Notes under the pieces: model-generated
What the model was told of the DNA's origin: nothing
The model's database searches: none
What the model saw: the letters and a program-made list of their open reading frames with translations, nothing else
Position numbers and translations under genes: made by a program
Shown here: one piece after another, positions 19,557-46,775 of the stretch
How the letters are laid out: the number at the start of each line of letters is the position of its first letter
Position numbering within the stretch: the stretch's first letter is position 1
Source of the DNA: Paucidesulfovibrio longus DSM 6739
GTDB taxonomy: Bacteria > Desulfobacterota > Desulfovibrionia > Desulfovibrionales > Desulfovibrionaceae
Reading direction: 5' to 3'
Assembly: GCF_000420485.1 (NCBI RefSeq)
Contig: NZ_ATVA01000012.1
Location: forward strand, 372,001 to 436,000
Length of the DNA: 64,000 nucleotides

Positions 19557-20564
19557 TCAGGCCGGATCTTGGATCGCGGCCCGGACCACGGCGCCCACCA
19601 GGGTTTCGTAGTCCATGCCGACCCTCTCCGCCGCTGCGGCGAGGCCCGCGTCCGGCGCGATGCAGGGATTGGGGTTCACGTCGATGACAAAGGGCCTTCC
19701 TCCCGCATCCACGCGCAGATCGACGCGCGCATAGCCGCGCATCTCGAAAAGCACCCAGCAGGCCATGGCCAGGGACTTGATGTCGCGCAGGAGCACGGCG
19801 TCCCCCTCGCCGAACTCGAAGGTCCGGGGCGTGTGTCCGTAGGCGAAGGAATCCTTGTCCCACTTGGCTTCGTAGCCCAGGATGCGCTGCTGTCCGGGGG
19901 CGAAGCCCTCGAAGAGGATCTCCGCCGGGGGCAGCACGCGCGGGCGGCCGTCCGTTTCCAGCAGGGCCACGTTGAATTCCCGCCCTTCGACGAACCCTTC
20001 GGCGAAGTATTCCAGGCCGGAGGCCTTGCGCCGCTGGCGCAGGAGGTTCAGCAGCTCCGCCCGGCTGCGGATTTCCACGACCGCGTCTTCGTTCAGGCCC
20101 ACCGAGCCGTGCTCGTAGATGGGTTTGACGATGAACGTGCCGCAGACCTCGCGCTCCTCGCGGGTCAGGCGCCGGGCCGTGTACCAGGGCGGGGAGGGCA
20201 CGCCCGCGATGCGCAGCAGCTCCTTGACGCGCAGCTTGTCCGCGGCGACGAAGACCGGGTAGCTGCCGCAGCCCGTGAGCGGGAGGCCGAGCGCCTCCAG
20301 CAGGGAAGGGGCCAGATGGGCCAGCCGGGCCTGGCCGCCGCAGGACTCCACCAGATTGAAGACCAGATCCGGCGGAGCGCTGCGCAGGCTCTCGGCCACG
20401 GCGTCCAGGTCCAGGCCCAGAGGCGTCTCGCGGACCTCGTGCCCCAGGGAGCGCAGGGCCGCGCCCACGGCGCGCGCCTGGACGAGGTTGTCCAGCTCGT
20501 CCTCGCGCGCGTCCCCGTTGCCGGGGCCGGAGGGCAGGAGGTCGTGGAGCACCTCGACGATCAT
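19557..20564 (-). CDS. D-alanine-D-alanine-ligase-type ATP-grasp enzyme (second of two)
   Basis: 335 residues. The start at MIVEVLHD is supported by GGAG six bases upstream and overlaps the preceding stop as ATGA. ATP-grasp features include FIVKPIYEHGSVGL (ATP-binding lysine and glycine loop), LEYFAEGFVEGREFNVALL, and the Mg-binding C-terminus VDLRVDAGGRPFVIDVNPNPCI. The N-terminal LVFNLVES resembles the Ddl pre-ATP-grasp fold. A dedicated cell-wall Ddl is unlikely, given the pairing with a second such ligase, an aminomutase and an acetyltransferase. It probably joins an amino acid carboxylate to an amine in a small-molecule or peptide pathway. Confidence 0.85.
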   Translation of the reverse strand: MIVEVLHDLLPSGPGNGDAREDELDNLVQARAVGAALRSLGHEVRETPLGLDLDAVAESLRSAPPDLVFNLVESCGGQARLAHLAPSLLEALGLPLTGCGSYPVFVAADKLRVKELLRIAGVPSPPWYTARRLTREEREVCGTFIVKPIYEHGSVGLNEDAVVEIRSRAELLNLLRQRRKASGLEYFAEGFVEGREFNVALLETDGRPRVLPPAEILFEGFAPGQQRILGYEAKWDKDSFAYGHTPRTFEFGEGDAVLLRDIKSLAMACWVLFEMRGYARVDLRVDAGGRPFVIDVNPNPCIAPDAGLAAAAERVGMDYETLVGAVVRAAIQDPA

Positions 20565-21574
20565 GCGCATCTCCAGAGCGCGTCGTTGCGCGCCGGGGCC
20601 TTCCGGACGCGCTCGCGGGCCGAGGCCAGGATGCGCCCGATAAGCTCCTTGAAGGATATGCCGTTCATTTCCGCGAGGATGGGCAGGTCCGAATATCCCG
20701 GATGCAGCCCGGCCAGTGGGTTGATTTCGATGATGTTGGCCACGCCGTTTTCGTCCAGGCGCACGTCCACCCGGCCGCCGTCCCGGCAGCCGATGCCGCG
20801 CCAGGCGGCCAGGGCCACGGCCTCGGCCGCGCGGGCGTCCTCGTCGTCGCGCAGGAAGTAGTCCACGCGCGACTCCCAGCCTTCCTTGTTCACGAAGGAG
20901 TAGACGCCGGGCTCGGCTTCGCCGCGCAGGAGAACTTCCATGACGCCGCAGGATTCGGCCTTGTCGCCGGTCCCGGTGATGCCCACGGTGAACTCGCGTC
21001 CCGGCAGGTAGGTTTCCACGAGCACGGGCTGGCGGAAGCGCTCCAGCAGCCTGCCGCAGACCTCCTCCAGCTCGGCGCGGGAGCGGATCACGGACTTGCC
21101 GTCGATGCCCTTGCCCGTGCCTTCGCTGATGGGCTTGGCAAAGAGCGGGTAGGCCATGTCCAGCCCTTCCAGGTCCGCGGGGCGCTCCACCACGGCGAAG
21201 TCCGGCGTGGGCACGCCCTGGTCGCGGAAGACGTGCTTGGCCATGCCCTTGTTCAGGGTCAGGCACATGACCAGCGGGTCCGAGAAGGTGTAGGGCACGC
21301 CGTAGGCGTCGAGCAGCGCGGGCACCAAAGCCTCGCGGCCGTTGCCGTAGAGGCCTTCGGCGATGTTGAAGACCATGTCCCAGCGCTCCCCGGCGGCGAG
21401 TCGCTGGACCAGCCGCTGGGCGTTGCCGATCAGCTCGGCCTGGTGGCCGAGTTCCTCGATGGTGGTGCGCAGGGCCTGGATGGTTTCGGGCGAGTCGAAC
21501 TCCGCCGAATCCTCATGGGAAATGCCCATGGCCAGGTAGTCGTCGCGCAGATCGTAGGTGATGCCGATGCGCAT
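20561..21574 (-). CDS. D-alanine-D-alanine-ligase-type ATP-grasp enzyme (first of two)
   Basis: 337 residues; the start at MRIGITYDLRDDY follows GAGGA. The Ddl-like N-terminal fold has DMVFNIAEGLYGNGREALVPALLDAYGVPYTFSD. ATP-grasp motifs are YPLFAKPISEGTGKGI, VETYLPGREFTVGITG and the metal-binding RVDVRLDENGVANIIEINPLAGLHPGYSDLPI. It is more canonical in its C-terminal HPGYSDLP motif than its partner. It lies 11 bases after the aminomutase gene and overlaps the next ligase gene by four bases, so the three are surely cotranscribed. The likely reaction is ATP-dependent amide bond formation with an unknown amino acid pair. Confidence 0.87.
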   Translation of the reverse strand: MRIGITYDLRDDYLAMGISHEDSAEFDSPETIQALRTTIEELGHQAELIGNAQRLVQRLAAGERWDMVFNIAEGLYGNGREALVPALLDAYGVPYTFSDPLVMCLTLNKGMAKHVFRDQGVPTPDFAVVERPADLEGLDMAYPLFAKPISEGTGKGIDGKSVIRSRAELEEVCGRLLERFRQPVLVETYLPGREFTVGITGTGDKAESCGVMEVLLRGEAEPGVYSFVNKEGWESRVDYFLRDDEDARAAEAVALAAWRGIGCRDGGRVDVRLDENGVANIIEINPLAGLHPGYSDLPILAEMNGISFKELIGRILASARERVRKAPARNDALWRCA

Positions 21575-21585
21575 GTCGCTCTTCC

Positions 21586-22872
<1,287 letters not shown>

Positions 22873-33358: not shown

Positions 33359-34660
33359 TTATGCTTTGATTGCGCGCAGCCCGTCTTCCATGATGGAGAG
33401 CCCGCGCTCCAGTTCCTCGTCGCTGATCACCAGCGGCATCAGCGTGCGGATCACGTTGCCGAAATTGCCGCAGGCCAGGATGATCAGGCCCTTTTCGCGG
33501 CAATAGCCCACCAGGGCCTTGGCCTTGTCCGTTGCCGGGCGTTTGCTCTCCCGGTCTTCCACCAGCTCCAAGGCCAGCATGGGGCCTTTTCCGCGCACGT
33601 CGCCGATGATCTCGAATTCCCTTTGCATTTCCAGGAAGCGGCTTCGGAGGGTTTTGCCGAGCTGTTCGCCGCGACGCAGCAGGCCGTCCTGCTCCAGGGC
33701 GTCGAGCACGGCCAGGGCCGCGGCGCAGCAGAGCGGGTTGCCGCCGTAGGTGCCGCCCAGGCCGCCCACATGCGGGTCGTCGAGCAGCTCGGCCCGGCCG
33801 ACCACGCCGGAAAGCGGCATTCCCCCGGCCAGGGATTTGGCCACGGTGATCATGTCCGGGGCCACGTCCCAGTGGTCGATGGCGAAGATCTTCCCGGTCC
33901 GCCCGAACCCGGTCTGGATCTCGTCCACGATCATCTGGATGCCGTACTTGTCGCAGATGGCCCGCAGCTTGGGGAAGTATTCCGGCGGCGGGGTCACGAA
34001 GCCGCCTTCGCCCTGCACCGGCTCCACGAGAAGCGCCGCGACTTCCTCGGCGGCCACGTAGGAAACGAAGAACTCTTCGAGATAGTCGGCGCAGGCCACG
34101 GAACAGCGGGGATATTCCAGCCCCAGGGGGCAGCGGTAGCAATAGGCGTAGGGCGCGCGGTAGATTTCCGGGGCGAACGGACCGAAACCGAACTTGTAGG
34201 GCTTGGATTTGCTGGTCAGGCTCATGGTCAGCAGGGTCCGGCCGTGAAAGGCGTTCTGGAAGGCCACGACAGCCGGGCGCTTCGTCTTGTAGCGCGCGAT
34301 CTTGACGGCGTTCTCCACGGCCTCGGCCCCGGAATTGAGAAAAAAGGACTTCTTGGCGAAGTCGCCGGGAGCCAGGGCGTTGATGCGTTCCGCCAGCTCC
34401 ACGTACGATTCGTACATGAAGACGTGGAAGCAGGTGTGCAGAAAGCTGTCCGCCTGCCGTTTGATCGCCTCCACCACCCTGGGGTGGCGGTGGCCCGTGT
34501 TGAGCACGCCGATGCCGCCCGCGAAATCGATGTATTCGTTTCCTTCCACGTCCGTGATGCGCGCGCCTTCGGCTTTCGCGGCAAAGGCGGGAACGGTGTT
34601 GAAGGGACCGCGTGGCACGGCCTTTTCGCGGCGCGCCAGGAGGCTCTTGTTGTCGGCCAT
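33359..34660 (-). CDS. Class III aminotransferase (4-aminobutyrate-aminotransferase-like)
   Basis: 433 residues of fold-type I PLP enzyme. The family pattern is complete: FFLNSGAEAVENAVKIAR, AFHGRTLLTMSLTSK, VEPVQGEGGF, MIVDEIQTGFGRTGKIFAIDHW and the PLP lysine in ITVAKSLAGGMPLSG. A CYRCPLGLEYPRCSVAC insert with several cysteines is shared by some GABA/omega-amino-acid aminotransferases and is also present in the fusion enzyme at 38614. It is placed 18 bases before aor, suggesting omega-amine to aldehyde to acid steps. AAGGAG precedes the ATG. Confidence 0.9.
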   Translation of the reverse strand: MADNKSLLARREKAVPRGPFNTVPAFAAKAEGARITDVEGNEYIDFAGGIGVLNTGHRHPRVVEAIKRQADSFLHTCFHVFMYESYVELAERINALAPGDFAKKSFFLNSGAEAVENAVKIARYKTKRPAVVAFQNAFHGRTLLTMSLTSKSKPYKFGFGPFAPEIYRAPYAYCYRCPLGLEYPRCSVACADYLEEFFVSYVAAEEVAALLVEPVQGEGGFVTPPPEYFPKLRAICDKYGIQMIVDEIQTGFGRTGKIFAIDHWDVAPDMITVAKSLAGGMPLSGVVGRAELLDDPHVGGLGGTYGGNPLCCAAALAVLDALEQDGLLRRGEQLGKTLRSRFLEMQREFEIIGDVRGKGPMLALELVEDRESKRPATDKAKALVGYCREKGLIILACGNFGNVIRTLMPLVISDEELERGLSIMEDGLRAIKA

Positions 34661-34714: not shown

Positions 34715-35923
34715 TTAAATCTTTTCGATGATGGCGGCCACGCCCTGCCCCCCGCCGATGCAGGAGGCCGCGCAGCCCAGCCTGCCGTTCTCCGCCTGGA
34801 GGATGCGCGCCAGGGTGCCCACGAGCCGGACGCCCGTCGCGCCCATGGCGTGGCCCAGGGCCAGTCCCCCGCCCTTGACGTTGACCCGCCCGGCAGGCAG
34901 GCCCAGCTCGCGCATGGCGTGCAGCACGACCACGGAAAAGGCTTCGTTGATCTCCCAGAAATCCATGTCCTCGACTTTGTAGCCGCCTTTTTCCAGGGCC
35001 ATGCGCGCCGCCGGAACAGGAGCCGCGCCCATGATCGTGGGATCCACCCCGGCAAAGCCGATGGAGCGGATCGCGGCCAGGGGCTTGATGCCCCGGCGCT
35101 CGGCCTCCTCGCGCGAGAGCAGCAGCATGGCCGCGGCTCCGGAGTTCAGGGGCGAGGCGTTGCCCGCGGTGATGCCGCCGTTCTCCTTGTCGAAGATGGG
35201 CTTCAGCCCGGCCATGGATTCGAGGTCCGCGCCTTCCCGCACGGCCTGGTCGCGGTCCACGCGCAGCACGCTGCCGTCGGCCTGGGGCGCGTCCACGGGC
35301 AGAATTTCGCCGTCGAAGAATCCCTCCTCGCGCGCCAGGGTGGCGAGCCGGTGGGAGCGCACGCCGAACTCGTCCATCTCCTCCCTGGTGATGGAACCCT
35401 GCTTCCAGAGCTTCTCCGCGGTCAGGCCCATGACCATGGTGGTGTCCATGTCCCAGTGCGCGTAGCGCTCCTCGCGGAACAGGGCGGGGTTCATGCTGAT
35501 GGTGCCTTCCTGGAAGAGCTTCGGACCCATGGGCACGCGCGTCATCTGCTCCATGCCGCAGGCCAGGACCGCGTCGGCGTAGCCGGAGGCGATCTCCAGA
35601 TAGCCCATGTGCACGGCGGCCATGCCTGAACCGCATTGCTGGTCCAGAAACCGCGCGGGCACCGAGGCGTCGAGGTTGGCCTGGAACACGGGCGTGCGGC
35701 CGCCGAAGGTCCAGTTCTCGGTGACGCCCAGGGCGCAGCCCACCAGAAAGTCGTCCAGGTCGGCGGAATCGAATGCGGCGCGTTCCAGCAGGGCCGGAAT
35801 CACGGCGCAGAGCAGGTCGTCGGCGCGCAGGGCGTGGAACCAGTCCCGCTCGGGGTCTTTGGGCCGCGCGCGGGATTGCGCGGTGCGCAGGTATCCGGCG
35901 ATGACCACTTCTCTCGTTTGCAT
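34715..35923 (-). CDS. Acetyl-CoA acetyltransferase (thiolase)
   Basis: 402 residues. The nucleophilic cysteine is in FLDQQCGSGMAAVHMG, the histidines in WEINEAFSVVVLHAMRELGL and GGGLALGHAMGATG, and the second cysteine in SCIGGGQGVAAIIE. A thiolytic role, cleaving a 3-oxoacyl-CoA to acetyl-CoA, fits the adjacent CoA-transferase genes. The start at MQTREVVIAG has AAGGAG nine bases upstream. The gene is internal to the leftward operon. Confidence 0.92.
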   Translation of the reverse strand: MQTREVVIAGYLRTAQSRARPKDPERDWFHALRADDLLCAVIPALLERAAFDSADLDDFLVGCALGVTENWTFGGRTPVFQANLDASVPARFLDQQCGSGMAAVHMGYLEIASGYADAVLACGMEQMTRVPMGPKLFQEGTISMNPALFREERYAHWDMDTTMVMGLTAEKLWKQGSITREEMDEFGVRSHRLATLAREEGFFDGEILPVDAPQADGSVLRVDRDQAVREGADLESMAGLKPIFDKENGGITAGNASPLNSGAAAMLLLSREEAERRGIKPLAAIRSIGFAGVDPTIMGAAPVPAARMALEKGGYKVEDMDFWEINEAFSVVVLHAMRELGLPAGRVNVKGGGLALGHAMGATGVRLVGTLARILQAENGRLGCAASCIGGGQGVAAIIEKI

Positions 35924-35946: not shown

Positions 35947-37230
35947 CTATTCGACCAGGCCGCACCAGCGCGCCGCGAACAGGGCGTAGGCCTTGGCCGT
36001 GTGCGTCACGCTCGAGAGCAGCACGCGCTCGTCCGCGCCGTGGATGCGCTCTGCCACGGGACCGTAGCAGCAGCCGCGCGCCGAGCCGTAGTCGTAGAAG
36101 GCGCGCAGGTCCGTGGTGCAGGTGGAAACATATTCTTCGACCGGCTCCCCTGTCAGGGCCTCGTGGCACTGGGCCAGGGCCTCCAGGGGCTGGGCGTCCC
36201 GGCGCTGCACGTGCCCGTCCGAGCGGAACCCGTAGAATTCCACGACGGGCGGATTTTCGGCCAGCCAGGGGTCGGCCTTGGCCGCCCTGGCCACGGTCGC
36301 CTCGATCTGCTTGCGCACGTCCTGGAAGCGCTGCCCCGGCAGGTAGGCCATGCGGCAGCGCAGCGTGGCCGAGGCGGGCACCGTGGAAGGCCAGTCCCCG
36401 CTCTGGAGCGCGCCGACATTGAGGTTCAGGGGATGCTCGAATTCGTCGTAGGGCGCGGGCAGCGGTCCCTGGTTCATTTCTTCTTCCAGCTCGCGCAGGG
36501 CCTGGATCAGCGGGAAGCATTTTTCCAGGGCGTTGGCTCCGGCCCCGGCCTCCTGCACGTGTACGGGCCTGCCGCCCACGTCGATGCGGAACCAGAGCAC
36601 GCCCACCTGGGCGGTGTAGAGCCGGGGGCCGAAGGGTTCGGGGATGAGCACCGCATGGGCGTCCACTCCCGCCACCCGGCAGGCCAGGGCGCCGTTGCCG
36701 GAACACTCCTCCTCGATGACCGCTTCCAGAGTCAGGGGCGAGGCCAGACCGAATCCGGCCTTGCGCAGGGCGTAGGCCGCGTAGGTCATGGCCGCGACGC
36801 CGGATTTCATGTCGCCCGCGCCCCGCCCGTACATCCAGCCGTCCTCGACGACCGGCTCGAAGGGGTCGCGGCTCCAGAGGCCCAAAGGCTCCGGGCTGAC
36901 CACGTCGAGATGGCCGTTGAAAAGGGCGCTCTGGCCGCCGATGCCTTCGGGGGCGGTGGGCTCGGCCTCGATGCGCGAGACCACGTTCCAGCGGTTTTGG
37001 GCGGCCCAGGGCACGGGCGCGAAGCCCGGATGCGTGCGCAGCACGTCGTAGTCGATGGGCACGAGCCGCATGGGCAGGCCCAGGCGGGTCAGCTCGTCGG
37101 ACATGAGCCGCAGCGCGCCTTTCTCGTTTTCCAGGGTGCTCGGCTCGGCCACGAGCCGGGCCGTGAAGTCGAAAATGTCGTCGGCGAGGGATTCCACGGT
37201 TTCGACGATTTTTTGTTCCTGTGCGTTCAA
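35947..37230 (-). CDS. M20-family metallo-deacylase (ArgE/DapE-like)
   Basis: 427 residues. There is no ATG near the conserved N-terminus; a TTG preceded by GAAGGA at six bases is the best start (LNAQEQKIVETVESL). Di-zinc ligands are visible: LFNGHLDVVSPEP (His and Asp), YGRGAGDMKSGVAAM (Asp), VIEEECSGNGA (catalytic Glu pair) and a late SSVTHTAKAYALFA (His). It hydrolyses N-acyl amino acids or short amides. Within this catabolic operon it may free an amino acid from an acylated precursor. The exact substrate is unknown. Confidence 0.85.
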   Translation of the reverse strand: MNAQEQKIVETVESLADDIFDFTARLVAEPSTLENEKGALRLMSDELTRLGLPMRLVPIDYDVLRTHPGFAPVPWAAQNRWNVVSRIEAEPTAPEGIGGQSALFNGHLDVVSPEPLGLWSRDPFEPVVEDGWMYGRGAGDMKSGVAAMTYAAYALRKAGFGLASPLTLEAVIEEECSGNGALACRVAGVDAHAVLIPEPFGPRLYTAQVGVLWFRIDVGGRPVHVQEAGAGANALEKCFPLIQALRELEEEMNQGPLPAPYDEFEHPLNLNVGALQSGDWPSTVPASATLRCRMAYLPGQRFQDVRKQIEATVARAAKADPWLAENPPVVEFYGFRSDGHVQRRDAQPLEALAQCHEALTGEPVEEYVSTCTTDLRAFYDYGSARGCCYGPVAERIHGADERVLLSSVTHTAKAYALFAARWCGLVE

Positions 37231-37253
37231 TTCGGTTCCTTCGGATAATGGAT

Positions 37254-37904
37254 TCAGAATCTCGGAATCTCCCCCTGGGGCGCGATGATCTGGGCCTCGG
37301 TCTTGGCGCGCACTTCCTCCAGCGTGACGCCTTCGGCCAGCTCGCGCAGACGCAGGCCGTCCGGTCCGGGGTCGAGTACGGCCAGTTCCGTGATGATGCG
37401 GCTGACGCAGCCGCGCGCGGTTACGGGCAGGGTGCATTCGCGTAAAATCTTGGGTGCGCCGGAGCGCGTGGTGTGCGTGGTCGTGACGATGACCCGCCGG
37501 GCCTTCTGGGCAAGCTCCATGCCCCCGCCGATGCCGGGCGCGAACTTGCCCGGAATGATCCAGTTGGCGAGGTCGCCGTTGCCCGCCACTTCCAGCGCGC
37601 CGAGCACGGCCACGTCGAGACGGCCGCCGCGCACCAGGGCGAAGGAAAGGGCCGAGTCGAAGAAGGCGGCTCCGCTCCGGGTGGTGATGTACCCGCCGCC
37701 GGAGTCGATGAGCGCGGGGTGGGCGCGGTCCATGCCGCAGCGCGGCCCCATGCCGAGCACGCCGTTTTCGCTGTGCACGTAGATGTCCAGGTCCGGGGGC
37801 GTGTGGTCCAGGAGCAGGGTGGGCAGGCCGATGCCGAGGTTGACTACCTCGCCGTTTCGCAGCTCGGCCGCGGCCCGGCGGGCTATCTTGAGCTTAGAGG
37901 ACAT
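37254..37904 (-). CDS. 3-oxoacid/acetoacetate-type CoA-transferase subunit B
   Basis: 216 residues. The catalytic glutamate lies in VHSENGVLGMGP, which forms the glutamyl-CoA thioester in family I CoA-transferases. NLGIGLPTLLLDH and GGGMELAQKARRVIVTTTHTTR are also typical. It overlaps subunit A by 11 bases (translational coupling). With thiolase downstream, it should activate a 3-oxo acid, for example acetoacetate, and then split it to acetyl-CoA units. Confidence 0.92.
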   Translation of the reverse strand: MSSKLKIARRAAAELRNGEVVNLGIGLPTLLLDHTPPDLDIYVHSENGVLGMGPRCGMDRAHPALIDSGGGYITTRSGAAFFDSALSFALVRGGRLDVAVLGALEVAGNGDLANWIIPGKFAPGIGGGMELAQKARRVIVTTTHTTRSGAPKILRECTLPVTARGCVSRIITELAVLDPGPDGLRLRELAEGVTLEEVRAKTEAQIIAPQGEIPRF

Positions 37905-38589
37905 GATGCTTGAGCACTCCGTAGGCTTCGTTCCTGGTGTCGGCGGGCACGACGTGGTCCACGAACGCGCCGGGCAGGTGCACGGCGTCCGGGTCCAGCG
38001 CGCCGGTCTCCACGATTTCCAGCGCCTCCACGATGACCAGGTCCGAGGCCGTGGCCATGAGCGGGTTGAAATTCCGGGCGGTCTTTTCGAAGACCAGATT
38101 GCCCCAGCGGTCGGCCCTGGCCGCGTGGATCAAGGCCGCGTCCGCGCGCAGGGACGGCTCCACGATGCAGGTCCGGCCCTGGAACTGGATGGTTTCCTTC
38201 TGCTCGCGCAGGATGGTCTCCAGGCCGATGTCCGTGAGCAGGCCGGGCAGGCCCGCACCGCCCGCGCGAATCTTCTCGGCCAGCAGTCCCTGGGGGTGCA
38301 TCTCCACCTCCAGTTCGCCCCGGTTCATCATCTCGATGACCGCGCCGTTCAGGCCCATGTGCGAAACCACGAACCGCTCCGCGCAGCCCGCTTCGATGAG
38401 CGTGGAAATGCCGATTCCCTGTTCGTTGGCATCGTTCTTGATCAGCGTGAGCCCTGTCAGGCCGCGCGCGAGCAGCGCCCGGATCAGGGTGAAGGGCGTT
38501 CCGGGCGAGCCGAACCCGCCGAGCATTACGGACGCGCCGCCGCGTACGTTCGCCAGCGCCTTGTCCGCCGTCGTCGTCTTGTCGATCAC
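37894..38589 (-). CDS. 3-oxoacid/acetoacetate-type CoA-transferase subunit A
   Basis: 231 residues. It starts with GTG, with CGGAG upstream. The glycine-rich CoA-binding loop SVMLGGFGSPGTP and LTLIKNDANEQGIGIS match the AtoD/ScoA family. It forms the heterodimeric enzyme with the overlapping subunit B. It lies 24 bases after the transposase-aminotransferase fusion, which heads the operon. Confidence 0.92.
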   Translation of the reverse strand: MIDKTTTADKALANVRGGASVMLGGFGSPGTPFTLIRALLARGLTGLTLIKNDANEQGIGISTLIEAGCAERFVVSHMGLNGAVIEMMNRGELEVEMHPQGLLAEKIRAGGAGLPGLLTDIGLETILREQKETIQFQGRTCIVEPSLRADAALIHAARADRWGNLVFEKTARNFNPLMATASDLVIVEALEIVETGALDPDAVHLPGAFVDHVVPADTRNEAYGVLKHHVL

Positions 38590-38613
38590 TTGCTTCTCCG
38601 TCCCGGAGGGGGC

Positions 38614-40944
38614 TTAGCGGTAATAGGGCGTGGCCGCGGTGGCTCCGCTGCTCCGGGTGTCCAGCAGCGACGCCTCCAATTCCTTGAGCTGGGCTGCGGT
38701 CCGCGCGAGGGCGCGGTCGAGCTTTTCCAGCAGCTCGTCCACCTGCGCCTCGGTCACGATCAGCGGCGGGGCCACGAGAACGTGGTCGCCGTAGAGTCCG
38801 TTGATGGAACGGCGCGGGTAGATCAGCAGTCCGTCCGCAAAGGCGTTGTCCGTGAGCAGCATGGCCGTGTTCCATTCCGGGGGGAACGGCTCGCGGGTCT
38901 TGCGGTCGCGCACCAGCTCCAGGGCCGTGAGCAGCCCCAGGCCGCGCACCTCGCCGATGATGGCGTGGCGCTTTTCCAGCTTGCGCAGCCCGCGCATGAG
39001 GATTTCGCCCATGCGGGCGGCGTTTTCCGGCAGCCGCTCGTCCAGGAGCACGCCGAGCACCTCCAGCCCCACGGCGCAAGCCATGGGATTGCCCGCGTAG
39101 GTGTGGCCGTGGGCGAAACCGCCGCGCCGCACCACCACGTCCACGATCTCGTCCGTGGTCAGCACCGCGCCGAGCGGGTAGTAGCCGGAGGCGATGCCCT
39201 TGGACAGGGCCACCACGTCCGCCTCGATGCCCCAATGCTCGTAGGCGAAGAGCTTTCCGGTGCGGCCGAACCCGGTCATGACCTCGTCGAGGATCAGGAA
39301 GATGCCGTACTTGCGGCAGATGTGCTGGATGATGCCGAAATATTCGTCCGGCGGCACGAGCGCGCCCGTGCTGGCCCCGCCTACAGGCTCGACCACGAAG
39401 GCCGCGATGTTTTCCGGCCCCTGCTCGACCACGGTCTTTTCCAGCGCCCAGGCGCACTCCAGTTCGCAGTCCGGGTAGCGCTTGTGGTAGACGCAGCGGT
39501 AGCAGGTGGGCGAGGGGATCTTGGGATTCTCCTGGACCATGGGCTTGAAGGCCACTTCCAGCGGGGCATAGGAGGTCAGGGAAAGCGCGCCGAGCGTGGC
39601 TCCGTGGTAGGCGGGCACGCGGCTGATGAACTTGTAGCGCGAGCCCTCGCCCAGATTGAAGAAATACTGCCGACAGACCTTCATGGCCGACTCCACGGCC
39701 TCGGACCCGCCGGAAACGAAGAAGACGCGGTTCAGGTGCGGGGCCGAGTTGTGCACCAGGGCGCGCGCCAGCTCCTGCGAGGGAAAGCTGTCGAACTGGG
39801 TCCGGTAGGCGAAGAAGGTCTGGCGGGCCTGTCGCTCCACCGCGGCGATCACGCGCTGGTTGCCGTGGCCGATGTTGTTGACCACCGCCCCGGAACAGCC
39901 GTCCAGATAGCGCTTGCCGCGCGTATCCCACATGTAGAGCCCCTCGGCCCCGGCGATGACGGGCTGCTCCTTCTTGGTCTGGTAAAAGAGGTATTTTTCC
40001 TGGTCCGGATAGGCGGCCATCTCCGCGGGGTGGCGCTTGAAGAGGTCCGGCCTGCTTTCGTGAAAGCGGGCCAGCTTTTCCATCGGGGTCAGGCGGCCCA
40101 TGGTCACCAGGGGAATGTTGTTGTTGTAGACGTAGGCGTGCCCCAGAAGCTTCTTTTCGATTTCCTCGGAAGAGGCGAAGGGCGAGGGGTAGGGCGCGCA
40201 CGCGCCGGGATTGTCGTCCGACGGCTGGAACGGCTCCTCGGAGCGCGGCGGATAGGTCGTCTGCACGATGCCCAGCTCGCGGCAGGTCTCGGCAAAGGCG
40301 TGCGCTTCGCCTCCCTCGGAAACGAAGACCGGACTGGCCGAGGTCAGGGCGCGGCGAAGATGGAACGGGGCCGCGTCCGAAAGGTTGCGCAGGAACTGGG
40401 CCGCGCTTTCCGGCGAGCCGTCCGGGTGCGCCTCCATGAACAGCCAGCCCGAGGAGCGGTCCACCGCGATGAAGAGAATCTTATTGAACCGCTCGCACTG
40501 CACCTTCGGCAGGGTGCGGGCATGGACGCGCACGAAGCCGGGGAGATAGGTCTTGTATTTCCGGAGCACTTCCCGATGCTCGACCGGGTCCGGAACGAGG
40601 TCGGCCACGTGCTGAACCTGCCTGCGCCGCAGGAGGCGGTCCAGCGAGGAGCGCGAGCAGGAAGGCTGGATGAACATGCGCACCACGGTGAGCAGATCGT
40701 CCAGGGAAAGGATCATGGTGCGCCGGATTTCGACGATGAGGTTTTCCTGGTCCGGCGTGAAGGCCGTGCGCGAGGGCAGGGCCCGCCGGGTTTCCTCGTA
40801 GCCCTCGGCCCGTTTGCGCCATTTGCGCACGGTGGATTCGCTGAGGCTCAGCTCGCGGGCGAGTTCGGATACGGATTTTTGGGATTCCCGGATGTATTTG
40901 CGGATGGCTGGGGTGGTGGTATTTTTCCGAAATGTAAAACCCAT
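38614..40944 (-). CDS. Domesticated IS481-type transposase fused to class III aminotransferase
   Basis: 776 residues in one open frame; the start at MGFTFRKN has GGAG seven bases upstream. Residues 1-308 follow an IS481-type transposase throughout: helix-turn-helix (25-46, ELSLSESTVRKWRKR), the SLDDLL/SRSSLDRLLRRR region, the retroviral-integrase core, and the C-terminal YNNNIPLVTMGRLTPMEKL..DLF region. All three DDE positions appear lost: D1 is replaced by His141 (GFVRVHARTLP), D2 by Ser202 (ALTSASP), and the E region by a divergent stretch after TYPPR (231 onward). Residues 309-776 are a complete aminotransferase with HGATLGALSLTS, LILDEVMTGFGRTG and PLP lysine Lys582 in ALSKGIASG. It probably combines DNA binding with an amino-donor-sensing or catalytic domain, similar in concept to GabR/MocR regulators but built from a transposase. 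Confidence 0.85.
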   Translation of the reverse strand: MGFTFRKNTTTPAIRKYIRESQKSVSELARELSLSESTVRKWRKRAEGYEETRRALPSRTAFTPDQENLIVEIRRTMILSLDDLLTVVRMFIQPSCSRSSLDRLLRRRQVQHVADLVPDPVEHREVLRKYKTYLPGFVRVHARTLPKVQCERFNKILFIAVDRSSGWLFMEAHPDGSPESAAQFLRNLSDAAPFHLRRALTSASPVFVSEGGEAHAFAETCRELGIVQTTYPPRSEEPFQPSDDNPGACAPYPSPFASSEEIEKKLLGHAYVYNNNIPLVTMGRLTPMEKLARFHESRPDLFKRHPAEMAAYPDQEKYLFYQTKKEQPVIAGAEGLYMWDTRGKRYLDGCSGAVVNNIGHGNQRVIAAVERQARQTFFAYRTQFDSFPSQELARALVHNSAPHLNRVFFVSGGSEAVESAMKVCRQYFFNLGEGSRYKFISRVPAYHGATLGALSLTSYAPLEVAFKPMVQENPKIPSPTCYRCVYHKRYPDCELECAWALEKTVVEQGPENIAAFVVEPVGGASTGALVPPDEYFGIIQHICRKYGIFLILDEVMTGFGRTGKLFAYEHWGIEADVVALSKGIASGYYPLGAVLTTDEIVDVVVRRGGFAHGHTYAGNPMACAVGLEVLGVLLDERLPENAARMGEILMRGLRKLEKRHAIIGEVRGLGLLTALELVRDRKTREPFPPEWNTAMLLTDNAFADGLLIYPRRSINGLYGDHVLVAPPLIVTEAQVDELLEKLDRALARTAAQLKELEASLLDTRSSGATAATPYYR

Positions 40945-40985
40945 GTGCGGCTCCGAAGGAGTAAATGCGCTTGTAGCGCTTCTGA

Positions 40986-41008
40986 TGATTCCAATATGGC
41001 GGGAATCA
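40986..41008. promoter_or_regulatory. Inverted repeat, candidate operator for the fusion protein
   Basis: TGATTCC-N9-GGAATCA is a perfect 7+7 inverted repeat 42 bases upstream of the fusion gene start. A single GGAATCA half-site recurs at 41264-41270 in the same divergent spacer. The remaining spacer (40945-41431, AT-rich compared with the genes) contains no gene that I can support. Confidence 0.5.
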
Positions 41009-41333
41009 ATGTGGAGATTTCCGCTGTTCGTGGCTTTTTTTGGACTTTTGAGCATTGAATGCGTCCATGTCGCCACGATGACAGATTATGCAAGCCGACG
41101 TGCCGCACCCGGAAGCGGGTTTGGCAATAAAAATGAAATATATCAGATTAGTCCGTTTCATGCAAACCTGATTATGCGACATCCTTCCTGAATTTCATTC
41201 GTTTATACCGTGATGATTGGAGAAAACTGATCTCATTTCCGTGGAAATCGCGTTTCGAACTGAGGAATCAGAACATGCAGGAGGTGAAAACAACATATTA
41301 TCATAACGAGAATTCAAAATTTGGATAAGTACC

Positions 41334-41362
41334 TTGACTTCATTCGGATTTTAAACTAGGAA
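41334..41362 (+). promoter_or_regulatory. Candidate sigma-70 promoter of the ABC importer operon
   Basis: TTGACT (41334-41339) with a 17-base spacer to TAGGAA (41357-41362), about 70 bases before the first permease start. A short AGCCC/GGGCT hairpin (41398-41414) lies in the leader. The -10 match is modest. Confidence 0.45.
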
Positions 41363-41431
41363 AAGAACATCTCATTCACAAATATGTAAGTTGAGAAAGC
41401 CCGTCCCAAGGGCTGAAGAGATGTTTATTCC

Positions 41432-42301
41432 ATGAATGAAAATTTGAAAGGAGGCTGGAGGCCCTGGGCGCTTCTGGCTCCGTCCCTCAGCGCGGTATTC
41501 TTCCTGCTCGTGGTTCCGGTCTGCTTCATCGTCGTCTACAGCTTCTGGCTGCGGGCTCCGTCCGGAGCGGACGTGGCGGCCTTCCAGTTCGGCAACTACG
41601 GCAAGCTCTTCCAGGACTTTTTCTACCCGTCGATCCTGCTGCGCACGATCCGGGTCAGCCTGGAGTGCGTGGCCCTCTGCCTGGTCATGGGCTACATCCC
41701 GGCCTATTTCTTCTACCGCACCCGGTCGAGGTTCAAGCCGTTCCTGATGCTCCTGATCATGCTGCCGTTCTGGATCAGCTTCATCATCCGCACGCTCTCC
41801 TGGATCAACATCCTCGGCGACACGGGCCTGATCAACTATCTCCTCGTCTCGTCCGGCATTCTTCAGGAGCCGCTGGGCATGCTCTACAACGAGGTCGCGG
41901 TGCTCATGGGCCTGATCCAGTACCTGCTGCCCTTCATGATCCTGAACATCTACGTGAGCCTCGAGGGCATCGACCAGAGCCTGCTGGAGGCGGCGCGCTC
42001 CATGGGCTGCACCGAGTGGCAGGCTTTCCGCGAGGTCACGCTTCCGCTCTCCCTGCCGGGAGTCAGCGCGGGCAGCCTGCTGGTCTTCGTGCTTTCGGCG
42101 GGAACCTACCTGCCGCCCATGATCCTCGGCGGCCCCGGCAACGAGATGATCGCCAACCTGATCTTCAAGCGGGTCATCGGCACCCTGGACTGGCCCTTCG
42201 GCTCGGCCATCAGCGTGATCCTGCTGCTGCTCGTGGGCTCCATCGTCTGGACCTACAACCGCTACCTGGGCATCAACCAGGTCTTCAAAGCCATGCAATA
42301 G
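41432..42301 (+). CDS. ABC transporter permease, spermidine/putrescine type (PotB-like)
   Basis: 289 residues with six transmembrane helices. The EAA loop that docks the ATPase is seen in SLLEAARSMGCTEWQAFREVTLPLSLPG (around residues 188-215). Family context (PotABCD-like) suggests import of a polyamine, amino acid derivative or similar cation. It is the first gene of a rightward operon running through 48451 and is divergent from the aminotransferase-fusion operon. Catabolic genes on both sides suggest one shared substrate. Confidence 0.9.
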   Translation: MNENLKGGWRPWALLAPSLSAVFFLLVVPVCFIVVYSFWLRAPSGADVAAFQFGNYGKLFQDFFYPSILLRTIRVSLECVALCLVMGYIPAYFFYRTRSRFKPFLMLLIMLPFWISFIIRTLSWINILGDTGLINYLLVSSGILQEPLGMLYNEVAVLMGLIQYLLPFMILNIYVSLEGIDQSLLEAARSMGCTEWQAFREVTLPLSLPGVSAGSLLVFVLSAGTYLPPMILGGPGNEMIANLIFKRVIGTLDWPFGSAISVILLLLVGSIVWTYNRYLGINQVFKAMQ

Positions 42302-42313
42302 GGCGGGTATTTC

Positions 42314-43105
42314 ATGTTCAAGATTTCCGGCTGGTCCCTGATCCGCATCTATACGACCCTTGTGTACGTCTTCATGTTCGCGCCCATCGCCGTGGTCGTG
42401 ATCCTCTCCTTCAACCCGCAGCAGTTCGGCTCCTTCCCCATGGACGGGTTCAGCCTGCGCTGGTACGCCAAGCTCGCCGGGAACGAGGACATCCTCCAGG
42501 CCTTCCGCAATTCCCTGGTCCTCGGCAGCCTCACGGCCATCTGCACCACGGCCGTGGCCATTCCCGCGGCCATGGCCTTCGTGCGCTACGAGTTCCCGGG
42601 CAAGAACAGCCTGAACACGCTGCTCCTCGCGCCGATCATGGTCCCGGAGGTCATCCTCGGCGTGGCCCTGCTGCTGTTCATGCGCTGGCTCCAGCAGCCC
42701 AAGAGCTTCGCCCTGCTGCTCATCGGCCACGTGGTCATCACCCTGCCGTACGTGCTCCTCGTGGTGCAGGCGCGGCTGGTGGGCATCCGCACGGACTACG
42801 AGGAAGCGGCGAAATCCCTGGGGGCCGGGCCGTTCCAGACCTTCCGCGAAATCACGCTCCCGCTGCTGATGCCGGCGATCCTGGCGGGTTCGCTGTTTTC
42901 CTTCACCATTTCCTTTGACGACATCACGGCGACGCTGTTCTGGGCCACGGCCCGGAGCCAGACCGTCCCCGTGAAGATATTCGGCATGCTTCGCAACTCC
43001 ATCAGCCCGGAAATCAACGCCCTCGGTGCGGTGATGATCCTGCTCACCGTGGCCACGCCGCTTCTGGCGGGCTATCTGGCTCGTCGGTTCAGCAAGGGGA
43101 GTTGA
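42314..43105 (+). CDS. ABC transporter permease, spermidine/putrescine type (PotC-like)
   Basis: 263 residues with six transmembrane helices. The EAA loop is DYEEAAKSLGAGPFQTFREITLPLLMPAI. The PotC-type C-terminal region is SFDDITATLFWATARSQTVPVKIFGMLR, where SFDD is characteristic of PotC/YdcV-like permeases. It lies 12 bases after the first permease with GGGCGGGT before the ATG. Forms the heterodimeric channel with the upstream gene product. Confidence 0.9.
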   Translation: MFKISGWSLIRIYTTLVYVFMFAPIAVVVILSFNPQQFGSFPMDGFSLRWYAKLAGNEDILQAFRNSLVLGSLTAICTTAVAIPAAMAFVRYEFPGKNSLNTLLLAPIMVPEVILGVALLLFMRWLQQPKSFALLLIGHVVITLPYVLLVVQARLVGIRTDYEEAAKSLGAGPFQTFREITLPLLMPAILAGSLFSFTISFDDITATLFWATARSQTVPVKIFGMLRNSISPEINALGAVMILLTVATPLLAGYLARRFSKGS

Positions 43106-43108
43106 CGG

Positions 43109-43180
43109 CCGGGCATCGCCCGGAGAGGCAAAGCGGCGACGCCCGCCCGGCGGGCGCAACGCAATCCCGGTTGATCCGGG
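43109..43180 (+). other. Three intercistronic hairpins before the binding-protein gene
   Basis: CCGGGC-atc-GCCCGG (43109-43123), GCCCG-cccgg-CGGGC (43141-43155) and CCCGG-ttgat-CCGGG (43166-43180) lie in the 98-base gap. None has a T-run. Such hairpins commonly stabilise or segment mRNA so that the binding protein is made in excess of the permeases. Confidence 0.55.
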
Positions 43181-43203
43181 CCAACCCCAGAGGAGGAGAA
43201 ACC

Positions 43204-44361
43204 ATGACCAGAGAATGGAACAAGCGAGTGGACGAGGTCCAGGAACTGCATGAGGCCGGGGGGCTTTCCCGCCGCGACTTCATCCGCTTCGCAGGCATCG
43301 CGGGCGCCGCCCTGGGCCTTTGCGGCGGTCCCTTCGGGCTGGTGAGCGCGGCCATGGCCGCGAAATCCATCCGCTTCGACGGCTGGGGCGGCACCACTTC
43401 CGAGGCCTTCCGCAAATACGCCTTCGAACCGTTCAGCAAGGCCACCGGCATCGAGGTCATCGACGGCGAATTCGGCGACATGGATTCCTATCTCACCCGC
43501 GTGAAGGCTTCCTTCCCGCCGGGCGGCGAATTCAATCTGGCGCATCTTTCCGGCGTGTTCGACTACGCCCGCTACGTGGGCCTGGGCTACGAGTCCGTGC
43601 TGGACGAGTCCAAGATCCCCAACCTGGCCAACGTCATGACCGCCATGGTCGAGCCCTACCGCAAGATCACCCCCAAGGGGCTTTCCGCCGTGCCCTACGA
43701 CCTGGGCCAGACCGGCATCGCCTACAACACGAACAAGATTTCCAAGGACAAGGCCGAGAAGCTCGGCGCGGGCCTGCTCTTCGACGAAAGCCTCAAGGGC
43801 AAGCTCGGCTCCTGGACCGACTGGCGCACGAACATCTGGTACGCGGCCCTGGCCACGGGACAGAATCCCAACGACATCGAGAATATGGACAAGGTCTGGT
43901 CCGCGCTCCGCAAGCAGCGCGACCTGATCAAGAAGTACTGGGGTTCCGGCGCGGAGCTGATGAGCCTTTTGGCCAACGAGGAGATCTACGCCACTCCGGC
44001 CTGGTCCGGACGCGTGGCCCATCTCCAGGACCAGGGCCATCCCATCGGCTTCCTCCAGCCCGAAGGCACCTATTCCTGGCAGGAGTGCATCTTCGTGCTC
44101 AAGGGCTCGGACGCGGACACCGCCCAGAAGCTCCTGAACTACATGCTCGCGCCCAAGGCCGCCGTGGCCGTGGCCGAAGCGCAGAAGTATCCGCCGTCCC
44201 TGGACCCGACCAAGGTCGAGATGCCGGAATCCGTGCGCAAGCTGCCCGCCTTCGATCCCACGGGCCAGCTCAAGGGCTACCTCTTCGGCGTGCCCGACTA
44301 CTGGAACGGCCACCAGCTCGAATGGGCCGAGATGTGGGACCGGGTCATGGCCGGAGCGTAG
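43204..44361 (+). CDS. ABC transporter substrate-binding protein with Tat signal (PotD-like)
   Basis: 385 residues. The start at MTREWNKR has GAGGAGG upstream. A twin-arginine signal (SRRDFIRFAGIAGAALGLCGG) predicts export of a folded protein through Tat. The mature domain is PotD/PotF-like (SIRFDGWGGTTSEAFRKYAFEPFSKATGIEV, YNTNKI, GYLFGVPDYW). It captures the ligand in the periplasm and hands it to the two permeases. The ligand is not identified; the flanking genes suggest an amine- or amino-acid-related compound. Confidence 0.9.
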   Translation: MTREWNKRVDEVQELHEAGGLSRRDFIRFAGIAGAALGLCGGPFGLVSAAMAAKSIRFDGWGGTTSEAFRKYAFEPFSKATGIEVIDGEFGDMDSYLTRVKASFPPGGEFNLAHLSGVFDYARYVGLGYESVLDESKIPNLANVMTAMVEPYRKITPKGLSAVPYDLGQTGIAYNTNKISKDKAEKLGAGLLFDESLKGKLGSWTDWRTNIWYAALATGQNPNDIENMDKVWSALRKQRDLIKKYWGSGAELMSLLANEEIYATPAWSGRVAHLQDQGHPIGFLQPEGTYSWQECIFVLKGSDADTAQKLLNYMLAPKAAVAVAEAQKYPPSLDPTKVEMPESVRKLPAFDPTGQLKGYLFGVPDYWNGHQLEWAEMWDRVMAGA

Positions 44362-44454
44362 CTCCCGGCCTCCGGGCCTGATTGAAACGTGAACGGCGGC
44401 GCGGTTTCGCGCAGAGCGGAACCGCGCCGCGACAAGCAAGCAAAGGACGAAGAA

Positions 44455-45621
44455 GTGGAAAACCTCAGCCCTGAAACCGCGCACCTGGAACAGAACGCCG
44501 CGCCGCACGCCGACCCGACAGCGGAACCCGCCGTCAGGCTTACGGGACTGATGAAGCGTTTCGGCAAGACCGTTGCCGTGCAGAAGACCGACCTGACCAT
44601 CGAAACAGGGGAGCTGGTGACCCTGCTCGGTCCTTCCGGCTGCGGCAAGACCACCATCCTGCGGATGATCGCCGGGCTGGAAAAGCCCACCGAGGGCGAC
44701 ATCTACATCAAGGGCAGACGCGTCAACGACACGCCGATCCACAAGCGCAACCTGGGCATGATCTTTCAGAACTACGCGCTGTTTCCGCACAAGAATATTT
44801 TCGACAACGTGGCGTTCGGGCTCAAGTATCGCGGGGTTCCCCGCGAGGAGATGGCCGAAAAGGTCGTCCATGCCCTGGAAATGGTCCGCCTGCCCGGCGT
44901 GGAATCGCGGTTTCCCTCCCAGCTTTCCGGCGGCCAGCAGCAGCGCATCGCCCTGGCCCGCGCCATCGTCATCGAGCCCGACGTGCTGCTCATGGACGAG
45001 CCGCTTTCCGCCCTGGACGAGAAGCTGCGCGAGGAAATGCGCATGGAGATCGACAACATCCAGCGCACGCTGAACCTGACCACCCTGTTCGTGACCCACG
45101 ACCAGCGCGAGGCCCTGTCCATGTCCAACAAGATCGTGGTCATGAAGAGCGGCAGAAAGCAGCAGGAAGGCACGCCAGAGGATGTCTACGACTATCCCGC
45201 CAACTATTTCGTGGCCGATTTCCTGGGCCACTCCAATTTCTACGACGCGCGCGTGCTGGAATCGCTCAAGGGCGACCTCGTGCGGGTGCGCACCGACGAG
45301 GGGCTGGAGTTCTTCGCCGAGCACCAGGGCGTCTGGAAGGAAGGGGAGCAGGTCCGGCTGGTGGTCCGCGCCCAGAAGATCAACGTGACCTCGCCCGACC
45401 TGGCCGAGGAGGAGCTGGAATCCACCGAGATCAACTGCTTCCCCGGACGCATCTACGACCGCAGCTACATGGGCGGCGAGACGAGCTATTTCGTGGAGCT
45501 GGAAAAAGGCGTGCGCGTGCACGTCATCAGCATGGTCCGGCGCAGACCGCACAAGATCGGCGACGAGGTGGTGCTGCACGTGCCCGCCCGCCATTGCGGC
45601 CTGCTCCGCAACGAAGACTGA
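44455..45621 (+). CDS. ABC transporter ATP-binding protein (PotA-like)
   Basis: 388 residues from a GTG start with AAGGA seven bases upstream; an earlier GTG at 44389 is possible but lacks a good ribosome site. Walker A is GPSGCGKTT, the Q-loop is FQNYALFPH, the signature LSGGQQQR, Walker B VLLMDEPLSALD, and the switch His is in TLFVTHDQREAL. A C-terminal TOBE domain (about 285-388) is present, as in PotA/MalK-type importers. Completes the importer with the three genes upstream. Confidence 0.92.
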   Translation: MENLSPETAHLEQNAAPHADPTAEPAVRLTGLMKRFGKTVAVQKTDLTIETGELVTLLGPSGCGKTTILRMIAGLEKPTEGDIYIKGRRVNDTPIHKRNLGMIFQNYALFPHKNIFDNVAFGLKYRGVPREEMAEKVVHALEMVRLPGVESRFPSQLSGGQQQRIALARAIVIEPDVLLMDEPLSALDEKLREEMRMEIDNIQRTLNLTTLFVTHDQREALSMSNKIVVMKSGRKQQEGTPEDVYDYPANYFVADFLGHSNFYDARVLESLKGDLVRVRTDEGLEFFAEHQGVWKEGEQVRLVVRAQKINVTSPDLAEEELESTEINCFPGRIYDRSYMGGETSYFVELEKGVRVHVISMVRRRPHKIGDEVVLHVPARHCGLLRNED

Positions 45622-45707: not shown

Positions 45708-46775
45708 ATGGACCTGACCCGCATCGAGGGCGTGTTTTCCGGGCGCTGGCCCGGAGGCATCCTGACCGTGGACTCCCACACCGCCGGGGAAGGCACCCGG
45801 CTCATCGTGGGCGGGCTGCCCCCGCTGCCCGGCGCGACCATGGCCGACAAGCGCGCGGCCTTCGAGGCCGCTCACGACGACGTGCGCCTGCTGCTGACCC
45901 GCGAGCCGCGCGGCCACCGCGACCTGCTCGCCGCCGCCGTGACCGAGCCCTGCACGCCCGGCGCGGACTTCGGGCTCATCTACATGGACGCCCGGCGCTA
46001 TCCCTTTCTCTGCGGCCATGCCACCATCGGCGCCGTGACCACGCTCATCGAGTGCGGTGCGCTCCGGGTCCAGGCCGGGGACGAGGTCCGCATCATCGTG
46101 GACACTCCCTCCGGGCCCATGCCCTGCGCCGCGCGGATGCGGTCCGGCCGAGTCGCGTCCGTGGCCTTCCGTTCGGTGCCGTCCTTCGTCTGGGAGCGGG
46201 ACGTGCCCCTCGACCTCTCCGGCATCGTGCTGCCGGGAGGAATCCGGCCCGGAGTGGTGCCCGTGGACCTGGTCTGCGTGGGCGGCTACTTCGTGATGAT
46301 CGACGAGCGCGCCCTGGGCCTGGAATTGAGTCCGGAAATCAGCCGGGCGCTGATCGAGCCGGGCATGCGCATCATCGAGGAGGCCAATCGGCAGCTTGCG
46401 GTCCGCCATCCCCTGCGGTGCGAGGTGAACAGCGTGGACGTGGTCGAATTCCACGGTTCGAGGAAAACGCCGCATGGTTCCGTGGGCGTCAACGCCGTGG
46501 TCTACGGCGAGTCGCACCTGGACCGCTCGCCCTGCGGAACCGGAACCACGGCCAAGGTGGCGCTGCTGCATCGGCAGGGCAAGCTCGCATCGGGCCGGAA
46601 ATTCCTGAACAACAGCTTTCTCGGCTCGACCTTCACGGGCATGGTCGTGGAGGAAAGCGAAATCTGCGGACTGCCCGCCGTGGTGGCGGAAATCGAAGGC
46701 AGCGCCCAGGTCACGGGCCTGCACCGCTTCGTGCTTGACGAATCCGACCCCTTCCCGCAAGGCTTTCTATTGTGA
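45708..46775 (+). CDS. Proline racemase-family enzyme (hydroxyproline epimerase-like)
   Basis: 355 residues. Both catalytic cysteines of two-base epimerases are present: FLCGHATIG (near residue 101) and DRSPCGTGTTA (near residue 268), so racemisation or epimerisation is predicted rather than dehydration, in which the first Cys is replaced. TVDSHTAGEGTRLIVGG at the N-terminus is typical. The substrate may be proline, 4-hydroxyproline or a related cyclic amino acid. It lies between the importer ATPase and an amidohydrolase with which it overlaps (TGATG). Confidence 0.9.
   Translation: MDLTRIEGVFSGRWPGGILTVDSHTAGEGTRLIVGGLPPLPGATMADKRAAFEAAHDDVRLLLTREPRGHRDLLAAAVTEPCTPGADFGLIYMDARRYPFLCGHATIGAVTTLIECGALRVQAGDEVRIIVDTPSGPMPCAARMRSGRVASVAFRSVPSFVWERDVPLDLSGIVLPGGIRPGVVPVDLVCVGGYFVMIDERALGLELSPEISRALIEPGMRIIEEANRQLAVRHPLRCEVNSVDVVEFHGSRKTPHGSVGVNAVVYGESHLDRSPCGTGTTAKVALLHRQGKLASGRKFLNNSFLGSTFTGMVVEESEICGLPAVVAEIEGSAQVTGLHRFVLDESDPFPQGFLL

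Follow-up and report, generated by a model that had tools for sequence, protein, structure and literature searches.

An IS481-type transposase without its DDE catalytic residues is fused to a class III aminotransferase in three genomes of one bacterial genus

What is a transposase doing at the head of a metabolic enzyme? In the window, the stretch of 64,000 nucleotides analysed here, a single open frame of 776 codons plus a stop (38614-40944, minus strand) encodes an IS481-type transposase-like half that runs into a class III aminotransferase. An earlier note had read it as one 2331-base frame joining a transposase (residues 1-308) to an aminotransferase (residues 309-776), and the profile matches agree with that division.

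The N-terminal half (40021-40944, minus strand) aligns over residues 18-290 with positions 9-283 of the 284 positions of the NCBIfam IS481 model NF033577 (E 4.7e-29). The score of 101.8 bits lies under the curated cut-off of 224, as do those of the copies in two other species, and by that cut-off the N-half is derived from the IS481 family rather than being a member of it. The C-terminal half (38617-40020, minus strand) is matched by Pfam Aminotran_3 over residues 328-746 (E 1.8e-98, profile positions 11-403 of 403). This is the sole aminotransferase family among the 21 Pfam families matched by the fusion at E up to 1; within the same set HTH_Tnp_1 is the best helix-turn-helix (HTH) family and GntR is absent. 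In an alignment the aminotransferase half begins at about the point (near residue 309) where standalone relatives outside the genus start. It retains the lysine noted earlier, K582 (39199-39201, minus strand), in an SKG motif, which we take to be the PLP lysine; its equivalent is kept in all 11 aligned standalone relatives (L025-L035; L036 was left out of the alignment). Within each genome the fused aminotransferase has no other close copy, the best remaining match being 38% identical in the window's genome and 39% in each of the other two fusion genomes. The start of the fusion at 40944 is supported by a GGAG Shine-Dalgarno box (40951-40954, minus strand) found in all three fusion genomes, and by strong conservation across the three species that sets in at that ATG.

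The fusion lies at the same locus, with the same junction, in all three genomes examined of the genus (the window's genome, G000, together with G001 and G002), and a divergent transporter operon adjoins it in each. The window's protein shares 81% and 83% identity with its counterparts in the other two species; within the genus, the figure is 73% in the transposase half and 86-90% in the aminotransferase half. In G002 a contig end cuts the fusion off at residue 725, and residues 697-776 are matched by a piece on another contig. The recurrence at orthologous loci that the earlier note proposed to look for is thus found, and both chance and the assembly error that it considered are ruled out, since three separate genomes keep the frame at dS values of 0.69-1.16.

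Outside the genus, all 12 of the closer relatives (L025-L036, 56-69% identical) are standalone aminotransferases, with no N-half on the DNA examined, which reaches at least 2 kb upstream. Relatives of the query are encoded at 21 genome-contig loci in all, which comprise a fusion genome (L037), the 12 at 56-69%, and eight remote aminotransferases at 30-35%; the scan used short peptide patterns and hence is not a full census. Three long matches that were candidates for further fusions (L027, L028 and L035) are actually two adjacent aminotransferases each. A search of viral contigs with the full protein confirmed no relative.

The N-half has matches in 11 of 348 genomes of the order, the three fusions included (a class-level search covered the same 348 genomes with the same tally), and in 12 of 395 genomes of a phylum sample, the window's own included. 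The N-half search found no other match within G000. In the non-fusion genomes that match, the open frames are of 418 aa or less, too short for both halves, with the exception of L052. There (L052 2-2158, minus strand, genome G027) an IS481-type transposase with an intact DDE triad reads in frame into autotransporter-looking sequence, in a frame of 719-722 aa that is still open at the end of the stretch. This second in-frame fusion from a related transposase is possibly a fresh insertion. In a plasmid collection, ISGlo3 of Trichlorobacter lovleyi ranks first among the matches of the N-half, with 37.6% identity over 97%. We also note that G000 contains 13 matches to the IS481 model, the fusion included, on contigs C4, C5, C7, C11, C12, C15, C16 and C19; several of the others are at contig ends, so that another multi-copy IS481 group probably breaks the assembly.

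A model of residues 1-311 has a mean pLDDT of 76.7 and a pTM of 0.56. The full-length model was poor (pLDDT 54.2); two alignments that set transposases wrongly against the aminotransferase (A3 and A6) were kept out of folding. In a Foldseek search of the PDB the N-half model matched the IstA transposase 8b4h first (E 1.9e-08), followed mostly by retroviral integrases. The TM-scores to IstA are 0.39 and 0.35 over the whole chain, and at such low values the match is one of domains. The model contains a first HTH at residues 12-44 (40813-40911), where Pfam places HTH_Tnp_1 (PF01527, residues 13-59), a second three-helix unit at residues 64-107 (40624-40755), and an RNase H-like core at residues 137-276 (40117-40536) with a low-confidence loop at 235-252, all on the minus strand. 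Both the N-terminal HTH and the RNase H-like core of IS481 transposases are therefore found in the fusion. The claim that the HTH is kept is borne out, as both units are strongly conserved, with 29 of 33 positions of the first and 39 of 44 of the second identical across the three fusions.

The catalytic site has fared differently. In a 16-row alignment the DDE positions read H/S/D in the window's species and H/A/P in each of the other two, and D, D and E are intact in all 13 of the non-fused relatives aligned, rows that were hand-chosen for the count. H141 (40522-40524, minus strand) replaces the first catalytic Asp and is His in all three fusions; S202 (40339-40341, minus strand) replaces the second and is Ala in the two other species. 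D243 (40216-40218, minus strand) aligns with the catalytic Glu and is Pro in the other two, in a loop that aligns poorly. Relatives with stops or frameshifts or present only as fragments (such as L050, L051, L083 and most of L058-L080) were left out of the count, as were the remote L054-L057 and L070; the frames of L050 and L051, outside the count, show D, D and E. DDE enzymes carry their first two catalytic residues on beta-1 and just after beta-4. In our model the first two positions fall on beta-1 and just past beta-4, and the third falls in the low-confidence loop 235-252. The replacement of all three residues claimed in the earlier note thus holds in three species, with H141, S202 and K582 each found where it had placed them, the third column now assigned to D243, and intact catalytic residues ruled out. 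A simple search of the 160-200 bases flanking ISGlo3 (L099), L062, L082-L088, L100 and L101 on either side gave no convincing terminal inverted repeats; among the IS481 relatives, candidate inverted pairs occur at L050 (47 bases, 83%) and L053 (14 bases, 86%).

The transposase half is under purifying selection. By the NG86 method the three pairwise values of dN/dS for residues 1-306 are 0.179, 0.167 and 0.070, at dS of 1.10, 1.16 and 0.69, and those for the aminotransferase half are 0.12, 0.09 and 0.05. The values are lower in the first HTH (0.118, 0.065 and 0.023) and in residues 254-306 (0.088, 0.050 and 0.023), and the most relaxed stretch is residues 191-253 (0.299, 0.400 and 0.311). The pattern of identity is similar: 44 of 51 positions are the same in all three fusions in the C-terminal helices (256-306), 13 of 37 in residues 196-232, and eight of 23 in residues 233-255. 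A simulation of unconstrained substitution over the distance between G000 and G001, corrected 1.3-fold by our own choice, left 0.2% of 2000 runs free of stops, with a mean of 6.1 stops; the real frame has none. A single locus across species, purifying selection and catalytic loss are features of a domesticated transposase, and all three are found in the fusion. Given the recurrence throughout the genus, the loss of the DDE residues and the purifying selection, we are in very little doubt that the transposase half is domesticated, together with the fusion itself, rather than being a decaying insertion sequence or an assembly error.

The gene had been proposed to head a catabolic operon, and the NCBIfam families identified downstream bear this out. 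On the minus strand the fusion is followed by the A and B subunits of a 3-oxoacid CoA-transferase (37894-38589, TIGR02429; 37254-37904, TIGR02428), an ArgE/DapE family deacylase (35947-37239, NF005306), an acetyl-CoA C-acetyltransferase-like thiolase (34715-35902, NF005033) and a second class III aminotransferase that is GABA-transaminase-like (33359-34660, TIGR00700); the frame after that is presumably an aldehyde ferredoxin oxidoreductase. The CoA-transferase pair and the deacylase accompany the standalone aminotransferase in 10 of 12 loci, being absent from the DNA examined at L031 and L036. On the other side of the fusion, on the plus strand, is a potBCDA-type ABC transporter operon (41432-45621), with matches to PotB-, PotC- and PotA-like families below the equivalog cut-offs and no NCBIfam match for the potD-like member at 1e-30. 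A proline racemase or hydroxyproline epimerase-like gene, assigned by family search, follows the transporter genes (45708-46775, plus strand). At L025 and L033 the transporter genes and the aminotransferase are on the same strand.

Other frames of the window were noted in passing. An open frame of 1091 codons (37783-41058, plus strand) overlaps the fusion and the CoA-transferase A gene on the opposite strand; between species, variation in the fusion is greatest at third codon positions, and the open frame therefore looks like a shadow frame of GC-rich DNA. By eye, a KamA-like radical SAM frame and two ATP-grasp (D-Ala-D-Ala ligase-like) frames lie in a row at 19557-22872 (minus strand), and frames elsewhere in the window read as sigma-54 regulators.

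The divergent intergenic region (40945-41431) is of 487 bases with 42% GC, and its length is 487-490 bases across the three genomes. It contains a palindrome, TTNACANNNNTGTNAGTT (41375-41392, plus strand), the pattern of which has one match in each of the three genomes, and none for a reversed-pattern control. The palindrome is about 40 bases before potB and more than 400 from the start of the fusion. Near that start there is no palindrome-like site with two or fewer mismatches, and one with three in G001 only. Of the 21 loci L025-L045, only L037, itself a fusion genome, gave a match to the 16-base form, and the other 20 gave none; among the non-fused loci only L025 and L033 have transporter genes, so this control is small. 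The palindrome was chosen after inspection and its statistics are post hoc: it failed at the first threshold set, where one of 400 shuffles passed, and at a threshold fitted to it, it is equalled by two of 1000 full column shuffles and by 19 of 1000 local ones. It is thus a candidate operator, and a lead rather than proof that the fusion protein acts there. By eye, in the three-genome alignment, it sits just past the hexamers TTGACT-17-TAGKAA, which in the window are the sigma-70-like boxes TTGACT-17-TAGGAA upstream of the transporter operon (41334-41362, plus strand), with a weak -10; the promoter scanner did not report these boxes beside the palindrome.

In two of the three species the leader of the fusion gene has a terminator-like hairpin followed by a T run (L046 14038-14061, minus strand, and the same place in L047), with eight pairs in L046 by the scanner and seen in L047 from the sequence. 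A scan of the window's leader found no such hairpin. It is a possible attenuator, which would be another way of controlling the operon. Searches of L046 and L047 against Rfam returned nothing at the gathering score, and the window's spacer gave two chance-level matches (E 0.17 and 1).

How might such a gene have arisen, and what would it do? We suggest that, in an ancestor of the genus, an IS481-type element inserted in front of the aminotransferase gene. Loss of the transposase stop codon and of the right end of the element would have joined the two frames at about the native start of the aminotransferase, where the alignment places the junction. The transposase half has since lost its three catalytic residues, whereas the two HTH units have been kept by the purifying selection seen above, as have the strands of the core and the helices at the C-terminus. 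The product would most likely be a functional aminotransferase able to bind DNA as well, enzyme and regulator in one protein. Its aminotransferase dimer would bring two HTH heads to the palindrome beside the divergent transporter gene, and the fusion would adjust uptake, and possibly the catabolic operon too, in response to substrate or PLP state. As a whole, a captured IS481 transposase that is now the DNA-binding half of an aminotransferase regulator or enzyme is the best explanation, and we put its chances slightly above even. The regulatory role taken by itself, predicted from sequence, we judge to be evenly poised. The fullest form of the proposal is put forward tentatively: the dead DDE transposase would be the DNA-binding half of an active catabolic aminotransferase that senses its own substrate and, at one palindrome dedicated to it, controls the divergent uptake operon. 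If this were true, a MocR-like regulator would have been assembled a second time, from different parts.

The conservation of the transposase half might instead be structural, the half folding onto the aminotransferase, oligomerising it or stabilising it, with DNA binding gone. Conservation in the helices at 256-306, beside the junction, is about equal to that in the HTH, and the weakness of the operator evidence points the same way. Yet both HTH units keep recognition-helix residues that would hardly be needed structurally (the stretch SESTVRKWRK is identical in three species, at a dS of 0.76-0.97 over the HTH stretch), and the 12 closer relatives all do without any such extension. On balance we consider a purely structural role unlikely.

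We think it improbable, more so than a structural role, that the frame yields two products, with translation also beginning internally to give a free aminotransferase besides the fusion, so that the regulator and the enzyme would be in part different proteins. All three species have a start codon at residue 309 (ATG, TTG and TTG), at about the point where the standalone relatives begin, but Shine-Dalgarno pairing there is weak (0.1, -1.9 and -1.7 kcal/mol, against -5.8, -6.1 and -6.1 kcal/mol at the start of the fusion). All three have ATG or GTG at codon 288, where the pairing of -3.9 kcal/mol in G001 and G002 falls to -2.4 kcal/mol in the window's species; a GTG at 329 with a pairing of -5.6 kcal/mol occurs in G002 only.

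There is a very small chance that the palindrome belongs to another, unlinked regulator and that the fusion has some other place of action, for instance as an enzyme tethered to the nucleoid. The site is closer to the transporter gene than to the fusion, and the sigma-54 regulator frames read by eye would offer candidates, but a single site per genome would be unusual for a regulator with several targets. Hardly to be entertained is a recent IS remnant, open by chance and drifting, or an assembly artefact, for although stops are rare in GC-rich DNA and G000 has other IS481-model matches, several at contig ends, the junction is the same in three of three genomes, dN/dS is well below 1, the frame lacks the stops expected from simulation, GC3 in the N-half is 0.84 against 0.86-0.92 in seven neighbouring genes, and the N-half is without another match in its own genome.

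A captured transposase as the proposed DNA-binding half of an aminotransferase invites comparison with known systems. If the regulatory reading is right, the fusion would follow the same logic as the PLP-dependent transcription factors MocR/GabR. These regulators, like the fusion, have an N-terminal HTH and an aminotransferase-like domain; their genes are often divergent from those that they regulate and are tied to the use of amines and amino acids (PMC5320631). They have a GntR winged helix where the fusion has an entire transposase, containing two HTH units and an RNase H-like core, and their aminotransferase domain is of the aspartate aminotransferase (class I/II) type rather than class III. 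Moreover, the aminotransferase half of the fusion is a relative of the operon enzymes, not a dedicated sensor as in MocR/GabR. With no GntR domain and another class of aminotransferase, the fusion lies outside that family. It resembles IS481 transposases such as ISGlo3 in its full-length sequence match, HTH, core and C-terminal region, and differs from them in that D, D and E are all replaced, it is joined to an enzyme, and it occupies the same locus in three species.

In the host-transposase fusion transcription factors of eukaryotes a host gene has captured the DNA-binding part of a transposase; the present fusion is bacterial, keeps the whole transposase and has a metabolic enzyme as its partner. 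Trigger enzymes such as PutA are catabolic enzymes that also bind DNA. Their DNA-binding part is not derived from a transposase, and the dual activity of the fusion is a prediction. TldR proteins derive from TnpB and have lost its nuclease activity; as proposed for the fusion, they are mobile-element proteins kept as regulators without that activity. They differ in not being DDE transposases, in lacking a fused enzyme and in being RNA-guided regulators of bacteria (PMC13418256). Xre and antitoxin regulators are among the co-opted proteins named by a review of mobile elements recruited in prokaryotes; the review makes no use of the term DDE, and no transposase-enzyme fusion was found in the sections consulted (PMC8987985). 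Among the matches listed from open-licence full-text literature, judged by title or the start of the abstract, no bacterial transposase-aminotransferase protein is described; most subscription papers lie outside this scope.

The fusion is real, conserved and unusual. Eukaryotic transcription factors have arisen by the capture of transposase DNA-binding domains, and a bacterium appears to have done likewise with a metabolic enzyme and a whole transposase. Since the catalytic site has been degenerating while the DNA-binding parts stay, and three species can be compared, the route of domestication is open to study. The locus points to an enzyme that acquired, from a mobile element, a half for binding DNA and perhaps for regulating genes. 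Should the regulatory role be borne out, the combination of HTH and aminotransferase known from MocR would have originated a second time here.
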